From Halorubellus sp. JP-L1 (GTDB lineage: Archaea > Halobacteriota > Halobacteria > Halobacteriales > Natrialbaceae), in assembly GCF_011440375.1 (NCBI RefSeq), contig NZ_JAAOIR010000001.1, positions 372,001-436,000 on the forward strand: a stretch of 64,000 bases of DNA. The letters are read 5' to 3'. Below, piece after piece: positions 14,511 through 35,888 of the stretch. The position numbers and the translations under genes are program-made. Under the pieces are notes generated by a model that saw only the letters and a list, made by a program, of their open reading frames with translations, had not been told where the DNA came from and did not search any database. Position 1 is the stretch's first letter; every line of letters begins with the position of its first letter.

Positions 14511-14821
14511 GACCGCCGATTCTCGTCGCTCTCGACTCGCCGAACAGTCGAAGACGTGAACGGCGCGAGGGTTTGCTTGTCTTTCTCTCACACGGAACTG
14601 CCTGGCGGATCGTGCGAATTCTACATGAACTGTAACGACAGCGATGCCTACCGTGACAGTCGGCCAATATCCCTGGACCACGGCGGGGGGCCAGCGGTCG
14701 TATGGAATCTATGGATGGGTAGTAATCGCATCGTACTGGCACGATAGGCTACGCCTGTCTGTGATGCGAACGTTCTCAACGGTAGGAACGTTTTTGATGG
14801 TCTCCGCTCTCTCAGACGAAC
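14511..14821. other. Intergenic region without a recognised gene
   Basis: This 311-nt stretch has lower G+C than its flanks and short frames on both strands, none with coding character I trust. Its last 55 nt hold an inverted repeat that probably regulates the next gene. Confidence 0.5.
14769..14792 (+). promoter_or_regulatory. Inverted repeat, putative operator
   Basis: AACGTTC (14769-14775) and GAACGTT (14786-14792) form a perfect 7-bp inverted repeat with a 10-nt spacer, about 30 nt before the GTG of the downstream gene. Position and symmetry fit a dimeric regulator site. No matching regulator is identified. Confidence 0.45.
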
Positions 14822-25212: not shown

Positions 25213-25213
25213 C

Positions 25214-25543
25214 CCTGATTACACCCCGTCACCACGACTACGCCCTCTTCCCGACCAGTTCGGCATCTGCGAATTCTACGTGATCGACCCCTACCGTAGC
25301 AGCGGCCTCGCTATCCAGTAATTCGACAGCACCTAGACGCAAGACTGCGACGTCGACTACGGCGAGTTCAAACTCAACATTAACTTCGGCGGCCTCCAAG
25401 TTGTCTGGGCAGGAATGACCGACGAGCAGTGATCGGAGTTCCTCGCGAACCCCATTCTCGCGCTCGAAGCGAGGGACATCTTGGTGTTTTTGGTCATCGA
25501 CGATGGCTACCGGCTCGCACCCCAGTGTGGGAAGTGCCTTTGA
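25214..25543 (+). pseudogene. Decayed coding region with three internal stops
   Basis: One frame reads as protein-like sequence (FGICEFYVIDPYRSSGLAIQ, then YGEFKLNINFGGLQVVWAG, then RDILVFLVIDDGY) broken by TAA, TAG and TGA codons and ending in TGA at 25541-25543. The TAG and TGA occur where Trp would fit. There is no start codon in this frame after the upstream gene's stop. I do not recognise the parent protein; the CGKC end hints at a metal site. It marks the left edge of the accessory island. Confidence 0.6.
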
Positions 25544-25561
25544 TGGGTAATTGGGAGGGGC

Positions 25562-26380
25562 CTAGTAGGAGTCTTCCATAGGATCGGAAGGAAAGTCCCT
25601 TTCAGTTGCCTTTGAGGAGTTTTCCATCTCTTTCTTATCTGTTTTTCGAATATCGTTATGGATGGTGAAACGTGGCAAATTCTCGCTTATCTCTTCGGGG
25701 AAACCTCTGTAGAGAAATCTAAATCCGACCAACATAGAGAAGTTGAAAATATAAGCACCACCAGCGACCATAATACCGGACATTAGTCCAATGAACGCTG
25801 CCAGCCACATGGATTCAATCCGAAAATTCACCAGTTGTTCGAAGGGGATGAGTCCCAATTCCCAAGCCAAAAGAAGGGAACCCCCTCCAATCGCGATTGC
25901 TTGTAGACCTCCGGCTATAATATCTGCAGCAACGTATACAAAGTCTGGGTCGTCTGTGATTTGGACCGTCCGGTCCGGGAATTTTCTGGTTGACCAAACC
26001 CTTCCGATGCCGACACCGAGAATCGTAAACACAAACTGTAGTAGGAAAATCAGGGTGTCGGAATAGGCAACGACTATCGCGCAGATTGAGACTACTAATC
26101 CCCAAAATGCGACGTAGAATACAATTAGACTGCTTCGTTTATGCTGAGAATTAATGAGATAGTCAAATGGCTGTCTATGGCTCGATTCCGGAGGAATGCT
26201 TCGTTGCACAGCAATTGAAGTGAGCACAAATATTATCAGAGAAGATACTATTCCAAGCCGTCGCCACTGGCTGTTTACATCCAATTGAGTGAAGTAGACC
26301 GATATTGCACCAAATACACCCAATATCGTGAAAAGGCTTGAAGAGCGGTCAAAAAAACCCGAAAGTTCAGATTCAGACAC
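25562..26380 (-). CDS. Hypothetical polytopic membrane protein
   Basis: A 272-residue protein with about seven hydrophobic helices (for example LFTILGVFGAISVYF, LIVFYVAFWGLVVS, FLLQFVFTILGVGIG, LMSGIMVAGGAYIF) and a charged cytosolic tail rich in Lys and Glu. I recognise no family. Its codon use is much more A/T-rich and its protein less acidic than its neighbours, which marks it as acquired DNA. It sits between a pseudogene and the tRNA-Trp fragment. Confidence 0.6.
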   Translation of the reverse strand: MSESELSGFFDRSSSLFTILGVFGAISVYFTQLDVNSQWRRLGIVSSLIIFVLTSIAVQRSIPPESSHRQPFDYLINSQHKRSSLIVFYVAFWGLVVSICAIVVAYSDTLIFLLQFVFTILGVGIGRVWSTRKFPDRTVQITDDPDFVYVAADIIAGGLQAIAIGGGSLLLAWELGLIPFEQLVNFRIESMWLAAFIGLMSGIMVAGGAYIFNFSMLVGFRFLYRGFPEEISENLPRFTIHNDIRKTDKKEMENSSKATERDFPSDPMEDSY

Positions 26381-26560
26381 ATATACTGTGCTATTTGCCA
26401 GTCCACTTAATCGTTAGCTGTCAAAATCATATAGGCCGTAATTGATGAAGGACCGAATGCTTTGACAGTCCTCATCAAGACTAACAAGTGAATTGCTCGC
26501 AGGACGTGATGACTAAATTTGGATCAAGCTTGGGTAGTTAACGATGTGAGCCGCAGAAAG

Positions 26561-26592
26561 TGGGGCCGGAGGGATGTTGAACCCCCGGATCG
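26561..26592 (-). repeat. Partial tRNA-Trp 3' end, putative distal att site
   Basis: On the minus strand this reads as the T arm and acceptor 3' strand of tRNA-Trp (GGGGGTTCAA...CCGGCCCCA). It matches 30691-30720 in the same orientation except for two single G insertions. No 5' half is present, so it is not a functional tRNA gene. Confidence 0.7.
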
Positions 26593-26704
26593 CTGCGCTC
26601 GCCTCCGTACCGTAGACCGGCTCCTTCTGGTGGATTGACGCGGTCGTGCGACCAACGCGGTCGGTTATCGGTCGTCGGCTGTATCAGTCAAACATAACAC
26701 CACA

Positions 26705-27745
26705 ATGTCAGATCCTAACCTCTCTGAAAATCCAGCCGTGAATTATAGCCCTCGACAAGCACGACGCCAGTTCCTCGAATCCAAGAAGGGCGTAGTCAAG
26801 GACTCAACCGTTCGTGCATACCGATTTCCCACGAAACACTTCATCGAGTTCTGCGAGGAACACGAGATCGAAACAACTGGAGACATATCCGGGTACGTCA
26901 TCGAGAGCTGGAAGCAACAGCGCCGGAGCGAGAACATCAAGATCGTCACTCTCCATAACAACGTGAAGCACCTCCGCGTCTTCGTTCGCTGGTGCGAATC
27001 CGCCGATTTGGTCGAGCAGGGGTTGGCCGACAAAATGACCGTCCCAAACCTCTCAAACGAACAGGCGCGGAGTGACGACACCCTCCGGCTTGATCACGCC
27101 GAGGACGTACTCCGGTATCTGAAGACCTACGAGTACGGCAGTCGGAATCACGCTCTATTCCACACGTTGTGGCATACGGGCTGTCGTATTAGCGGCGCGC
27201 TCGCTCTGGACAAGAACGACTTCGTACAAACGCGGGACAAGTCGATCCTCCAGTTCCGAAATCGGAAGTCAGCGGGAACGGCGTTGAAGAACGCAAACTC
27301 GGGTGAGCGAGACGTGACAATCTCCGAGTCGGTGCGAAAGACGCTGGTGGACTACATCGAGGGGAAACGGGAAAACGTCGAAGACGAGTACGGCCGCGAC
27401 CCACTGTTCACGACGATCAATAGCCGAGTGCCTCGCCAACGCGCCTACAAAACGCTCGTGCCGGTCACCCGTCCATGCGTTCCGACGAACGGCTGTCCTC
27501 ACGACCGAGTGATCAACGACTGTGACGCCGCCCAGTCCGTCGATCAGGCACCGAGCTGTCCATCGTCCGTCTCCCTTCACCCCATCCGTCGCGGTTCGAT
27601 AACCTACCACATTAACCGGGGCTGGCCGAAGGAAAAGTTGAGTGAGCGTGTCGATGTGTCTGTGCCCGTCTTGGACAAGCACTACGACGCCCGAACGAAG
27701 GAGCAAGAGCGAGAAGGTCGGAAGGAATACATCGACTTGTTATAG
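26705..27745 (+). CDS. Tyrosine recombinase / phage-type integrase
   Basis: A 346-residue site-specific recombinase. The N-terminal SAM-like core-binding domain spans about 20-115 and the catalytic domain 125-340. The catalytic residues are R161 (GCRISGAL), H292 and R295 (LHPIRRGS), H302 (TYHINRG) and the nucleophile Y327 (DKHYDART). A Cys-containing insert (about 255-285) separates the two halves of the catalytic domain, as in several haloarchaeal integrases. It lies 113 nt from the partial tRNA-Trp sequence, so it is the probable agent of integration. Confidence 0.9.
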   Translation: MSDPNLSENPAVNYSPRQARRQFLESKKGVVKDSTVRAYRFPTKHFIEFCEEHEIETTGDISGYVIESWKQQRRSENIKIVTLHNNVKHLRVFVRWCESADLVEQGLADKMTVPNLSNEQARSDDTLRLDHAEDVLRYLKTYEYGSRNHALFHTLWHTGCRISGALALDKNDFVQTRDKSILQFRNRKSAGTALKNANSGERDVTISESVRKTLVDYIEGKRENVEDEYGRDPLFTTINSRVPRQRAYKTLVPVTRPCVPTNGCPHDRVINDCDAAQSVDQAPSCPSSVSLHPIRRGSITYHINRGWPKEKLSERVDVSVPVLDKHYDARTKEQEREGRKEYIDLL

Positions 27746-27786
27746 CAAAATAAAACGCGAATCGCTCAATACAGCCTGCGTATCTA

Positions 27787-27999
27787 TCACTCGGATAGGG
27801 AATTAATACCGATGAATATCGAGGTCAATCCTTGGAGTACCAATAGATAACCGATACCCCACGTAATCATCGAAATCCGTCCTGCCTGACCCACCTCAGG
27901 TGCCGCGATATACATAATGATGCCAGCTAAGACCGCTCCGATACCGAGGACTGGTACTCCATAAACCAGTATCTTGGCGATAAGGTCATCTAATGCCAT
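27787..27999 (-). CDS. Small two-helix membrane protein, 70 aa
   Basis: A 70-residue protein starting MALDDLIAK, with two hydrophobic helices (about 10-32 and 45-65) separated by a short polar loop (PEVGQAGR). It is convergent with the integrase and was probably brought in with the element. Size and layout resemble VirB2/TrbC-like pilins or small viral membrane proteins, but there is no sequence support for either. Confidence 0.55.
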   Translation of the reverse strand: MALDDLIAKILVYGVPVLGIGAVLAGIIMYIAAPEVGQAGRISMITWGIGYLLVLQGLTSIFIGINSLSE

Positions 28000-28065
28000 A
28001 GTTCCTGTAATCTCAGCGATTCTATAAAGGTATCTCCGAAACAGGAGTGAGCAGTACCTCGCCTG

Positions 28066-28094
28066 TATCGACCAGAACGTCCCAACACATCGAG
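28066..28094. repeat. Element repeat, copy A
   Basis: Core ACCAGAACGTCCCAACACAT followed by CGAG. It matches three other copies inside the element. This copy is followed by the remnant of a small Cys-rich gene. Confidence 0.65.
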
Positions 28095-28112
28095 CGGGCA
28101 GGGGTCGCCGTC

Positions 28113-28235
28113 CTACTCGTCGAAGTCTTTCCTCCCCTCGATGAAACACTCCGCGCAGGGGAAGTCGTCGTGGAGGTCGTCGCAGTCACAGTTGTCGTGT
28201 TCAACTTCATCGAGGCGGCATGAGTCTTGACTGTC
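28113..28235 (-). pseudogene. Remnant of a small Cys-rich (zinc-finger-like) gene
   Basis: The minus strand encodes, ending in TAG at 28113, a protein end with CDCDDLHDDFPCAECFIEGR and DFDE. The paired Cys look like a zinc site. The frame opens at a TGA at 28236-28238 with no start codon in between, so the 5' end is lost. A more decayed copy of the same C terminus (ECFMDGRQDLAE) lies near 30038-30080. Both lie next to a copy of the element repeat. Confidence 0.5.
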
Positions 28236-28638
28236 TCATCGGGCACAGTACCCCCGTCAGCTCGGAGTCAGTCCTGCAGGGTGCTCGTATTGGCCCTCTC
28301 ACTGTCAACGGTCACTGTCGGGTAGTCAACAGCGGTATGGAGTACGACCGTCCCGACGAATGTCGCAAGTGCGCCGAAACAACGATGGAAGTACGAACCA
28401 GGCGCGCGTGGAATATCGACGCAACCTCCTCGACCGGATGGGAGAGTCGGGTCACTGCTGGAAGAAGAAACGCTTCGAGCAAAGGGAACTGTGAACTCGA
28501 TGTTGTGTGACACATGTTCCGTACTCCATCGCGTTCGTCTTCTACACCTCTCTTTATTTCTGCACATCCGAATCGAACCATCCGATACGTAGACATGCGA
28601 ATGGAACGATTCGATCGGTCATATTCCAGAGTCTTCGC

Positions 28639-29205
28639 TCATTCGGAAGGTTCGAGGACGACCCCCGATTCCCACGGATCGGGGTCGAGTGTGTCACGTT
28701 CGTTGGCAGCCCCGGTTTTCTCTGCACGGGCAATCAGCGAGTCGTCCACGTAGTACGTCACAACGGTCGTTGGAGAGTCACCGGTGACGAGGTCGTCGCC
28801 GGATTCATAAGTCTCATTGTATGTGTACTGGCACCGACCGAGGCCAGCGCGTTCATCGGTTTCGAGTGTGACCGTCCAGTCGAAGTAGCAGGATTGGGCG
28901 ATGAGTCCGCTTCCCCACCTGGCAAGCAAGGTGTTGCGACGGTAGGCACGTTCATGGGATTCGACGAATGTCTGGAGCGACTGATCATCGTACGACGTAG
29001 GCTTCGTCGGATAGTCGAGTGAATGCACTGTGTCTTCGGTCGCGCCCGGCGGTTGCTCAGCGGGGGGTCGTGATTCCGTCGGTAACTCATCACGCGATGG
29101 TGGATTCCGGTTATTGAGGACAGTATCCGTTGGAAACGAAGGGATTACACAGCCAGAAAAAAGCGGTACACCCGCGACAAGAGAGAGTAGTCTTCGACGA
29201 TGCAT
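28639..29205 (-). CDS. Hypothetical lipoprotein, 188 aa
   Basis: An exported lipoprotein. The N terminus is MHRRRLLSLVAG with lipobox FSGC (C19), followed by a Pro/Glu-rich linker to about residue 60. The rest has two Cys (SCYF and RCQY) that could form a disulfide, and a beta-rich look. No family is recognised. It is carried by the element and has lower G+C than the chromosome. Confidence 0.65.
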   Translation of the reverse strand: MHRRRLLSLVAGVPLFSGCVIPSFPTDTVLNNRNPPSRDELPTESRPPAEQPPGATEDTVHSLDYPTKPTSYDDQSLQTFVESHERAYRRNTLLARWGSGLIAQSCYFDWTVTLETDERAGLGRCQYTYNETYESGDDLVTGDSPTTVVTYYVDDSLIARAEKTGAANERDTLDPDPWESGVVLEPSE

Positions 29206-29462
29206 TACTCGCCTTGAAGGTTGTTACCGGTAAGTGCTTTGTCTGTACTGAGCGATTCGTAGGTCACCTGTACCTACCAGAACGTCTCACCGCATCGAGG
29301 CAGGTTCTCACCAGCTAACTCGGAGTGAAACATCTGCTCAGTAGGTCTGCGTATTGGTTGGGACCGCAGCCACATTAGTCAGTTGAACGATAGTTATAAG
29401 GGAGAACAAGAGCGACTGCGAATCTGCAGAAAATACTTTACAATCTACTTTCAATATTTCCC
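29206..29462. other. Intergenic region between two divergent lipoprotein genes
   Basis: It holds repeat copy B and an A+T-rich stretch (about 29395-29460) before the second lipoprotein gene that probably contains its promoter. Nothing else is seen. Confidence 0.45.
29268..29303. repeat. Element repeat, copy B
   Basis: Core ACCAGAACGTCTCACCGCAT followed by CGAG, matching copies A, C and D. Confidence 0.65.
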
Positions 29463-29924
29463 ATGAGAAAATCTCGTCGCTCGTTTATCCTTTCCGTGGG
29501 GATGGCAATGCCGATAATAGGTGGGTGCACAACGGGATTTTCTCCCGATACTCCGCCGAGTCACACCGTGAACGACCCGCCAGGTTGGTTACATGAGGAG
29601 AGGGAGTGTGAATCTGGCTACTTGCTTGCGGTGCTCGAATTGGCCGACCCCGTTGAATCTGTGGACTCGAATTCTGCAGTAGTAAAGTTCACCGAACTTG
29701 ACCAGGAGGTCAAGGCAATTGTCCGCTATAGTCTCGTACATGAGAGTGCTGCAACGTGTACGAATGCAAAATTCTTCGCACAGTTGCTCGGTACTATCGT
29801 CGATAAGGGACTGGAGCCATACAGGGAGAAGACCGGAGAGAACCCGGACTCTATTTACATCAAAAGCCAGGACTATTACTATCGGATAAGTTCGCTCAGA
29901 GTCCGAGACCAAGTCCTTCCGTGA
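29463..29924 (+). CDS. Hypothetical lipoprotein, 153 aa
   Basis: An exported lipoprotein with N terminus MRKSRRSFILSVG (a twin-Arg-like pair) and lipobox IGGC (C22). The mature part is 130 residues with Cys in RECESG and TCTNAK. No family is recognised. It sits in the element, divergent from the other lipoprotein gene, with no detectable similarity between them beyond the export signal. Confidence 0.65.
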   Translation: MRKSRRSFILSVGMAMPIIGGCTTGFSPDTPPSHTVNDPPGWLHEERECESGYLLAVLELADPVESVDSNSAVVKFTELDQEVKAIVRYSLVHESAATCTNAKFFAQLLGTIVDKGLEPYREKTGENPDSIYIKSQDYYYRISSLRVRDQVLP

Positions 29925-29990
29925 AGAATGTTGCAAGCCCAACTCCGATGGACGAGTCGTCCCTGGGACCTATCGTTGCCAGATTACCCC

Positions 29991-30045
29991 ACTGTATCTA
30001 TCAGAACGTCCCACCCATTGAGCAAGCGACTGTCGCCGTCCTACT
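29991..30045. repeat. Element repeat, copy C (long)
   Basis: Core ATCAGAACGTCCCACCCATT followed by GAG. It continues with GTCGCCGTCCTACTC, which also follows copy A, so copies A and C share about 130 bp including a decayed gene end. Confidence 0.65.
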
Positions 30046-30149
30046 CTGCGAGGTCTTGCCGACCGTCCATGAAGCACTCTGTCACGGGAGGTCGTCGATA
30101 GGGAGTTCGTCCGTAGTCAAGACCAGCCCATCGAGCCGTTTGAGCCTTT

Positions 30150-30314
30150 ATGAAGTCACGATTGCAGAGTATCTTTGCGAAACCCACGCAGAGTCAGCCA
30201 ACGCTGAGAAACGCCGAAGAACCACGCCGGATTGTCACCGCGAACAGTACGTCCCAGTGCCACTCCTCGTTTTCGCGCGAGTATGCACTTCCGCGGCCAA
30301 CTGGAGACGCCTGA
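30150..30314 (+). CDS. Doubtful small ORF, 54 aa
   Basis: An ATG-started frame beginning MKSRLQSIFAKPTQ. It has no recognised motif and no hydrophobic segment. A short A+T-rich block precedes it. It may be chance or a fragment; listed because nothing else explains the stretch. Confidence 0.2.
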   Translation: MKSRLQSIFAKPTQSQPTLRNAEEPRRIVTANSTSQCHSSFSREYALPRPTGDA

Positions 30315-30472
30315 CCGGACCCCCATTTATACCCTATCACTCTATTCTTACTGTAGAATGGAGGTCCTCCTGACGTGGGATCTATAGTCTGTAATAAGAT
30401 TGCGTACTTTAGTACATCGAGCGTGCGAGATAGGGCCCGCGCAGGCCGACCAGGAACTTGCGAGCTACTTTC

Positions 30473-30508
30473 TCTTATCTACCAGAACATCTGAACGCAT
30501 CGATCGGG
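30473..30508. repeat. Element repeat, copy D
   Basis: Core ACCAGAACATCTGAACGCAT followed by CGAT, the most diverged of four copies. Confidence 0.6.
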
Positions 30509-30690
30509 AACGACTCCACCCCTCAAGATGCAGCAATTACTGCCGATAGCGTGTATCGAGAAGACCGCTATACGGCGTGGGGGTTGTACCCCTTACCCAC
30601 TCAGATCGACGGTGAAACCAGTAGTTCAGAGCGGTATATCAACATCGGGCCACTGCCGTCTGGTGGTTTTGGAGTTTGGGAGTAAGGGTA

Positions 30691-30870
30691 TGGGGCCGGA
30701 GGGATTTGAACCCCCGATCGACTGATATCTCCGGTGTGTGCGCCTCGGAACTCCAGAGGGTCGTCGTCGCGACGCGATGATCAGTCGGTCGCTCGGTATA
30801 TCAGCTGGAGTTTCGTCCCGGGCGCGTGGCCTCTGGAGTCAGTCGCCATGCCTGGCTTGGCCACAGCCCC
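30691..30870 (-). tRNA. tRNA-Trp (CCA) with a 106-nt intron
   Basis: Read on the minus strand, the 5' half starts GGGGCTGTGGCCAAGCC (from 30870) and the 3' half ends TCAAATCCCTCCGGCCCCA (to 30691). The acceptor stem pairs GGGGCTG with CGGCCCC; the discriminator is A and CCA is not encoded. Splicing after CTCCAG (30833) and before ATCAGT (30726) gives a perfect 5-bp anticodon stem (ACTGA/TCAGT) and loop CTCCAGA with anticodon CCA. The intron is therefore about 30727-30832, with AGA and ATA as the two 3-nt bulges of a bulge-helix-bulge. The intron carries box C/D-like guide elements, as known for Haloferax volcanii tRNA-Trp. Confidence 0.95.
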
Positions 30871-35612: not shown

Positions 35613-35772
35613 ACCAGAGACGCGACTCCGAACGCAAAAAGTCGTATTTGACGAGTCGATTCCGGTAGCCGACGGATTGCCGGGGTAACGTCCACGTACC
35701 CGCCACGCAGCCAGTTCCGCCCGCCCCTGGGCTCACGCTACGCTCGCGGGCTGGGTCGCACCAGGAGAAGCG

Positions 35773-35832
35773 GGCCGGAAGGGAATTGAACCACGGTCGC
35801 AGCAAGCTGCTCCCTGATTCAATTCCCTCCTG
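35773..35832. repeat. Duplicated tRNA-Lys 3' end with inverted copy
   Basis: Positions 35773-35794 repeat exactly the 22 nt at 35889-35910, the 3' end of tRNA-Lys, in the same orientation and 116 bp away. Positions 35819-35832 then carry an inverted copy of the T-arm part (TTCAATTCCCTCC against GGAAGGGAATTGAA), so the stretch can fold into a hairpin. It looks like the scar of an element once integrated at tRNA-Lys. Confidence 0.75.
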
Positions 35833-35888
35833 GCGTCGACCGCGACGCAGACGACTCGCTCCGCTCGTCGTGTTGCGTCGCGGTAGAA

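Follow-up and report, generated by a model that had tools for sequence, protein, structure and literature searches.

We report a small integrative element in the genome of Halorubellus sp. JP-L1. It lies at positions 26561-30690 of the 64,000-nucleotide (nt) stretch of DNA analyzed here, which we call the window, and it is very probably a haloarchaeal element whose SNJ2-type integrase recombines the core of its attachment site (attP) with the 3′ end of the tRNA-Trp gene. Three features of a site-specific integrative element are seen here: an intact tRNA marks one end, the tRNA 3′ end is repeated in direct orientation at the opposite end, and an integrase lies between them (aa, amino acids):

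26561-30690, no strand: integrated element, 4,130 bp, 54.2% G+C, with the tRNA-Trp 3′ end and the distal copy as its limits
30691-30870, minus strand: intact intron-containing tRNA-Trp, whose 3′ end is the insertion site (Rfam tRNA match, 44.1 bits)
26561-26595, minus strand: distal copy of the tRNA-Trp 3′ end, in the same orientation as tRNA-Trp
26705-27745, plus strand: SNJ2-type tyrosine integrase of the tRNA-Trp clade, 346 aa, no internal stop

The initial annotation, made from the sequence alone, had proposed that a small element with an integrase is integrated at the tRNA-Trp 3′ end, and the analysis supports it. It had read a partial tRNA-Trp 3′ end at 26561 in the orientation of the intact tRNA. 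When the last 45 nt of tRNA-Trp are compared with the 64-kb window, this distal copy is indeed the top match besides the gene itself (score 54), and the sole other match above the threshold of 34 is a tRNA-Lys gene (score 44). The final 15 nt of the copy are identical to tRNA-Trp; its T-loop has one additional base, and a second inserted base precedes the T-stem. That the copy is a chance match is ruled out by its recurrence in relatives, since the same arrangement is found at 11 other loci with both ends readable. The annotation had placed an integrase near the distal copy, and its frame opens 109 bp inside the copy; the element is of lower G+C, 54.2% versus 67.6% across the window. ARAGORN with bacterial settings did not call the tRNA-Trp gene, presumably owing to its intron.

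Residues R161, H292xxR295 and Y327 of the integrase are invariant across an alignment of eight integrases, and we take R161, H292, R295 and Y327 to be the catalytic R...HxxR...Y residues. The protein is 34.9% identical to the SNJ2 integrase with 95% of the query covered, and it thus belongs to the SNJ2 family as delimited in PMC8371274, where a minimum of 30% identity across no less than 60% of the protein is required. Relatives of the integrase (E ≤0.001) are present in 117 of the 125 genomes searched from its family. It matches 12 phage records, of which the best is HRTV-25 at 49.7% identity.

In a tree of 40 integrases, from which L135 was excluded for its in-frame stop (L and G numbers are our labels for loci and genomes), 18 fall in one clade with support 1.0, separate from the 22 other SNJ2-type integrases. 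The site of this clade is the tRNA-Trp 3′ end. L094 was assigned to the clade by identity, and the upstream site was read for 17 of the 18 members. When the 700 nt upstream of the integrase are compared with the tRNA-Trp 3′ end, the top score is 32-55 in all 17 members read, with the lowest scores in L008, which is truncated, and L136, which is altered. Outside the clade, where SNJ2 and HRPV-9 were read over 300 nt, the score is 13-28 for 21 of the 22 integrases; the other, L003 from the sister species G001, scores 35, and its upstream end reads as a tRNA-Lys end. In HRTV-25, 24 nt upstream of the integrase are identical to the tRNA-Trp 3′ end, as expected of an attP.

Elements of this kind form a family. 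Both the intact tRNA-Trp and the distal copy could be read at 12 loci, and 11 of the 12 elements are 1.7-4.2 kb long. No cargo is evident in G266 (1,743 bp) and G144 (1,839 bp), and there is one cargo gene in G307 (2,115 bp), G104 (2,260 bp), CSM-61 (2,387 bp), G384 (2,569 bp), G299 (2,708 bp) and G255 (3,395 bp). Two or three genes are found in G025 (2,795 bp, copy truncated), the window (4,130 bp) and G041 (4,171 bp, integrase interrupted), and more in G119 (8,500 bp). In two relatives the cargo matches candidate phage-defence families: the CSM-61 gene is DUF2971 and matches the PADLOC candidate defence family PDC-S31 (E 1.6e-23), and the G307 gene is trypsin-like and matches PDC-S45 (E 1.8e-24). 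In the literature searched, we found no description for haloarchaea of such a lifestyle, an integrase with none to few cargo genes.

The closest comparison is provided by Halorubrum sp. CSM-61 (NZ_RJJW01000006.1), where an element at the same site has an integrase 94% identical to that of the window. The two near-identical integrases accompany different cargo. The CSM-61 element has a single cargo gene in an unrelated interior, and we find no DNA match between the two elements beyond the integrase and the tRNA-proximal end. As far as the sequences go, the difference is an exchange of cargo within one lineage, in different genera. At L100, in a metagenome-assembled genome, a third integrase fragment, 90% identical, precedes tRNA-Trp and is the part of that element that was read.

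Besides the integrase, the window element contains the following:

27787-27999, minus strand: 70-aa hydrophobic membrane protein, probably with two helices, cargo; no known family above cut-off
28639-29205, minus strand: 188-aa lipoprotein-like cargo (...LFSGC); distant relatives in 56 of 292 other genomes searched
29463-29924, plus strand: 153-aa lipoprotein-like cargo (...IIGGC); distant relatives in 9 of 292 other genomes searched
30498-30690, no strand: tRNA-proximal element end, 76% identical (150 of 197 aligned columns) to the CSM-61 element

The open reading frames (ORFs) of the two lipoproteins and the two-helix membrane protein that the initial annotation described are confirmed, with the lipobox and the helices judged by eye. 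Neither lipoprotein has a Pfam, NCBIfam, PHROGs or PADLOC family, and the 153-aa one has a paralogue elsewhere in its own genome. The annotation noted no replication gene, and we also recognize none, either among the cargo ORFs or among seven further element ORFs (74-171 aa, without match in Pfam or PHROGs). Among the scanned element ORFs there are also no virion or replication genes of the kind that a pleolipovirus or a tailed provirus would have, and no transfer or mobilization genes as in an integrative conjugative element.

Alternatively, internal deletion in a larger provirus or plasmid may have removed the genes for replication and structure, and the element would be what is left, the integrase and a few genes. 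The same integrase clade does occur in the tailed virus HRTV-25 and on a 56-kb viral contig, the G101 integrase sits in larger surroundings with no tRNA-Trp within the 16.8 kb read beyond its distal copy, and some relatives have decayed integrases (an in-frame stop in G144, an interruption in G041). But the window and CSM-61 integrases are open, and for nearly all of the elements with both ends read to consist of an integrase and none to few differing genes, deletion would have to be repeated independently, which is less likely than a small-element lifestyle. We regard the remnant origin as unlikely.

In addition, the element has internal repeats. Three diverged copies at 28045-28094, 29250-29299 and 30455-30504 are spaced exactly 1,205 bp apart, and a further related stretch is found at 29990-30079. 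We considered integron-like cassette sites and rejected them. A genome search with the first repeat returned two further matches with E <0.001, both within the element.

The initial annotation expected relatives to show clean junctions at the tRNA-Trp end, and this is what we observe in Halorubrum. A flank starting TAGCGG... comes directly after tRNA-Trp in L173, L174, L178 and L185; in G144, G416 and G186, which have integrase elements, it comes after their distal copies; and it comes after one or two structured units of ~100 bp (the tail units discussed below) in L170, L187 and L184. In these comparisons of empty and occupied sites, homology of the flank starts at base 1-3. CSM-61, G384, G255, G104, G266 and the window have no match to that Halorubrum flank, and the outer flank of G041 matches a ~100-bp unit.

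There are points that weigh against our interpretation. For the Halorubrum junctions, the tRNA side was read for G144 only, and at G416 and G186 it falls beyond the stretch read; moreover, the outer flank that these loci share may be mobile DNA in its own right. The empty site of the window's own element was not seen: beyond tRNA-Trp, the sister species G001 has no integrase match and has other genes, a flavoprotein gene and a small ORF. Its flank agrees with the outer flank of the distal copy in 7 of the first 10 nt, and a 120-nt alignment of the two does no better than shuffled sequences, 121 of 500 of which reach it. A single-protein search of viral contigs confirmed no integrase relative; an alignment-based search of the viral contigs gave two integrase loci. 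Excision, the crossover position, the mode of transfer and the present activity of the element are things that we infer.

Where the crossover takes place can be approached by comparing 19 distal or attP copies. The final 14 nt match tRNA-Trp in all of them save L160, where they are altered, and L073 and L101, where they are cut short. The crossover most likely falls on the acceptor side, between the discriminator and the T-loop edge, a stretch of 14-15 bp (TGGGGCCGGAGGGAT on the plus strand), because heterology starts just past this stretch in several members. In 8 of the 19 copies (the window, L096, L153, L154, L155, L157, L158 and L159) the T-loop has 1-2 extra nt, in 11 it has normal length and sequence, and in none of the 19 is it altered at unchanged length. 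The CSM-61 copy also has an expanded T-loop, with a sequence other than that of the window, and comparable expansions are present in the ~100-bp tail units of Halorubrum. The T-loop expansion seems to be characteristic of the element side of the site. For the other inserted base in the window copy, the one before the T-stem, there is no such parallel. The initial annotation took the two single-base insertions as a sign of age. The insertions are real, but T-loop expansions recur too often among the copies for the insertion to be dated by them.

The stretch between the core and the integrase was also examined. In L071, L072, L073, L074 and L096 it is similar to the 3′ half of tRNA-Trp together with some of the intron. 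In a test of intron-likeness with 1,000 shuffles, the score was reached by none for L071, L072 and L073, by 5 for L074, 7 for L096, 26 for the window, 74 for HRTV-25, 138 for L099 and 783 for L097. In a profile search, only L071, L073 and L074, which are closely related, were above the inclusion threshold. We do not retain the reading of this stretch as a copied tRNA-Trp intron for the nine elements tested, and note the resemblance as a side observation.

In the mechanism that we propose, the attP core adjoins the start of the integrase gene, and the integrase would recombine this core with the tRNA-Trp 3′ end. The element would supply the new 3′ end of the tRNA, so that the tRNA-Trp gene stays functional, and the displaced host 3′ end together with the element side of the core would become the distal copy. 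The interior would be exchangeable cargo. Since no replication or transfer gene is recognized, the element probably moves as an excised circle that is carried passively, by cell fusion, vesicles or a helper virus.

Among known systems, those of the SNJ2 type (Betapleolipovirus SNJ2 and its relatives) are similar in their integrase family, in integrating at a tRNA 3′ end, and in having a short att core, of 13 bp in the Halovivax SNJ2 provirus according to PMC8371274. They differ in using another site and in carrying virion and replication genes, whereas the clade of the window is mostly of 1.7-4.2 kb with varied cargo, and no accessory gene is recognized as Orf2 or Orf3, which assist recombination in the SNJ2 type. 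HRTV-25 is a tailed virus of the Hafunaviridae which shares with the window element the integrase and the upstream tRNA-Trp end, but it is a 61.9-kb virus, and no likeness beyond the integrase was noticed in a search made with the integrase only.

The insertion site of the element also uncovers a feature of haloarchaeal tRNA genes, structured tail units of ~100 bp, which at their ends repeat the 3′ end of the very tRNA that they follow. They are present in 0, 1 or 2 copies at tRNA-Trp, and tail units and integrase elements begin at the same base after it. The window has one at another tRNA:

35771-35888, minus strand: tail unit after tRNA-Lys, with a hairpin and a T-arm-like palindrome, in which the tRNA-Lys 3′ end is copied exactly

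To count them at tRNA-Trp, we used a parser in which a unit has to end in the tRNA 3′ core with at most 3 mismatches in 15, and which could read 127 of 144 loci. At 36 of the 127 there is at least one unit of 102-124 bp, and at 8 there are two; the opposite-strand control gives 1 in 127. A search with a simple palindrome pattern found no units, and a covariance model succeeded. Built from 24 units (23 of tRNA-Trp, one of the window's tRNA-Lys), the model has 103 matches with E ≤0.01 in 6 genomes, 4 of them overlaps with tRNA-Trp itself or reverse-strand readings. We inspected 47 of the 70 matches from four genomes: 42 of them, from 35 of 40 loci, lie directly against the 3′ end of a tRNA, and 14 amino-acid identities are represented. 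The copy is of the locus's own tRNA 3′ end in 34 of these 35 loci, exactly so in 22, the loci having been picked by a model whose own end is of the tRNA-Trp type. Within 300 nt, 33 of 34 tRNAs have a copy of their own 3′ end downstream, none upstream, and 2 on the opposite strand. Ten non-Trp tRNAs were encountered independently of the model, among them the window's tRNA-Lys, which had led us to look, and six of the ten have a copy. The palindrome's left arm is also closer to its own tRNA (3.88 mismatches in 14) than to others (4.51), a modest effect that 0 of 300 permutations reach.

The hairpin covaries. Changes on both sides are seen in 12 of 22 pairs, a number that 0 of 500 shuffles reach and for which slid structures give at most 8, with a structure derived from the same alignment on which covariation was then tested. 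Rfam gives only tRNA matches at six unit loci, plus one below-cut-off riboswitch match elsewhere in one locus, and no match there to the E. coli rtT/tyrT repeat family. In E. coli, the 178-bp repeats of tyrT, with the rtT RNA, are tandem units 3′ of the tRNA gene, each with a tRNA 3′-end copy, and they occur at one tRNA locus; the haloarchaeal tail units, by comparison, are found at many tRNAs, with covarying hairpins and no Rfam family. The parts of the literature brought up by searches aimed at tail units contain no description of them.

What these units are can be read in two ways. They could be structured tRNA trailers multiplied by ordinary tandem duplication, independently of the integrase, and we give this about an even chance. 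Strong hairpin covariation is what a functional RNA or DNA structure would show, and the units are found at tRNAs of 14 identities; they would then be a conserved part of haloarchaeal tRNA expression. It fits less well that in Halorubrum and in genus g9 a locus may have 0, 1 or 2 units, with outer-flank homology resuming at the exact base, the very base at which integrase elements begin, and that two units, A and B, are in opposite orders in G024 and G023. The opposite orders and the exact presence or absence would be compatible with mobility, yet duplication and loss can mimic both. We propose only tentatively, and with somewhat more doubt than trust, a two-tier use of many haloarchaeal tRNA 3′ ends as docking sites, by autonomous elements with an integrase and cargo, and by ~100-bp non-autonomous units that would either be moved in trans by integrases or be kept by the host as spare att sites that spare the tRNA. 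If mobile, the units, with nothing but an attachment site and hairpins, would rank with the smallest known integrative elements.

Other loci with related arrangements were noticed. At L161 (G145), tRNA-Val at 14583-14656 is followed by three tail units in tandem, all of which end in the 3′ end of tRNA-Val, with one mismatch in one of them. In the window's own genome, L082 10369-11700 (C1:46362-47700) has a second SNJ2-type integrase, of 33% identity. After it comes a tail-unit-like repeat next to which no tRNA was detected, and which may be the end of another element. At L347 237-2515 (G027), a 2.28-kb insertion without SNJ2-type integrase match separates tRNA-Trp from a tail unit, and the first 400-500 bp of this insertion are found after units in G023 and G024.

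Finally, outside the element, beyond the distal copy, there are two features in a region (25213-26560) which the initial annotation described as a pseudogene and a membrane-protein gene, and as the possible remains of a second, tandem insertion:

25391-25531, plus strand: piece of a disrupted gene for a viral packaging ATPase (SNJ1/NVIV1-like), with 33 identical aa in 47 and a stop
25562-26380, minus strand: A+T-rich gene for a membrane protein of 272 aa; 17 of 194 other genomes searched have weak relatives

The second insertion finds partial support. The ATPase fragment favors it, and so do the related genomes G004 and G005, each of which has eight NVIV1-like genes in a provirus 2.4-11.7 kb beyond tRNA-Trp.

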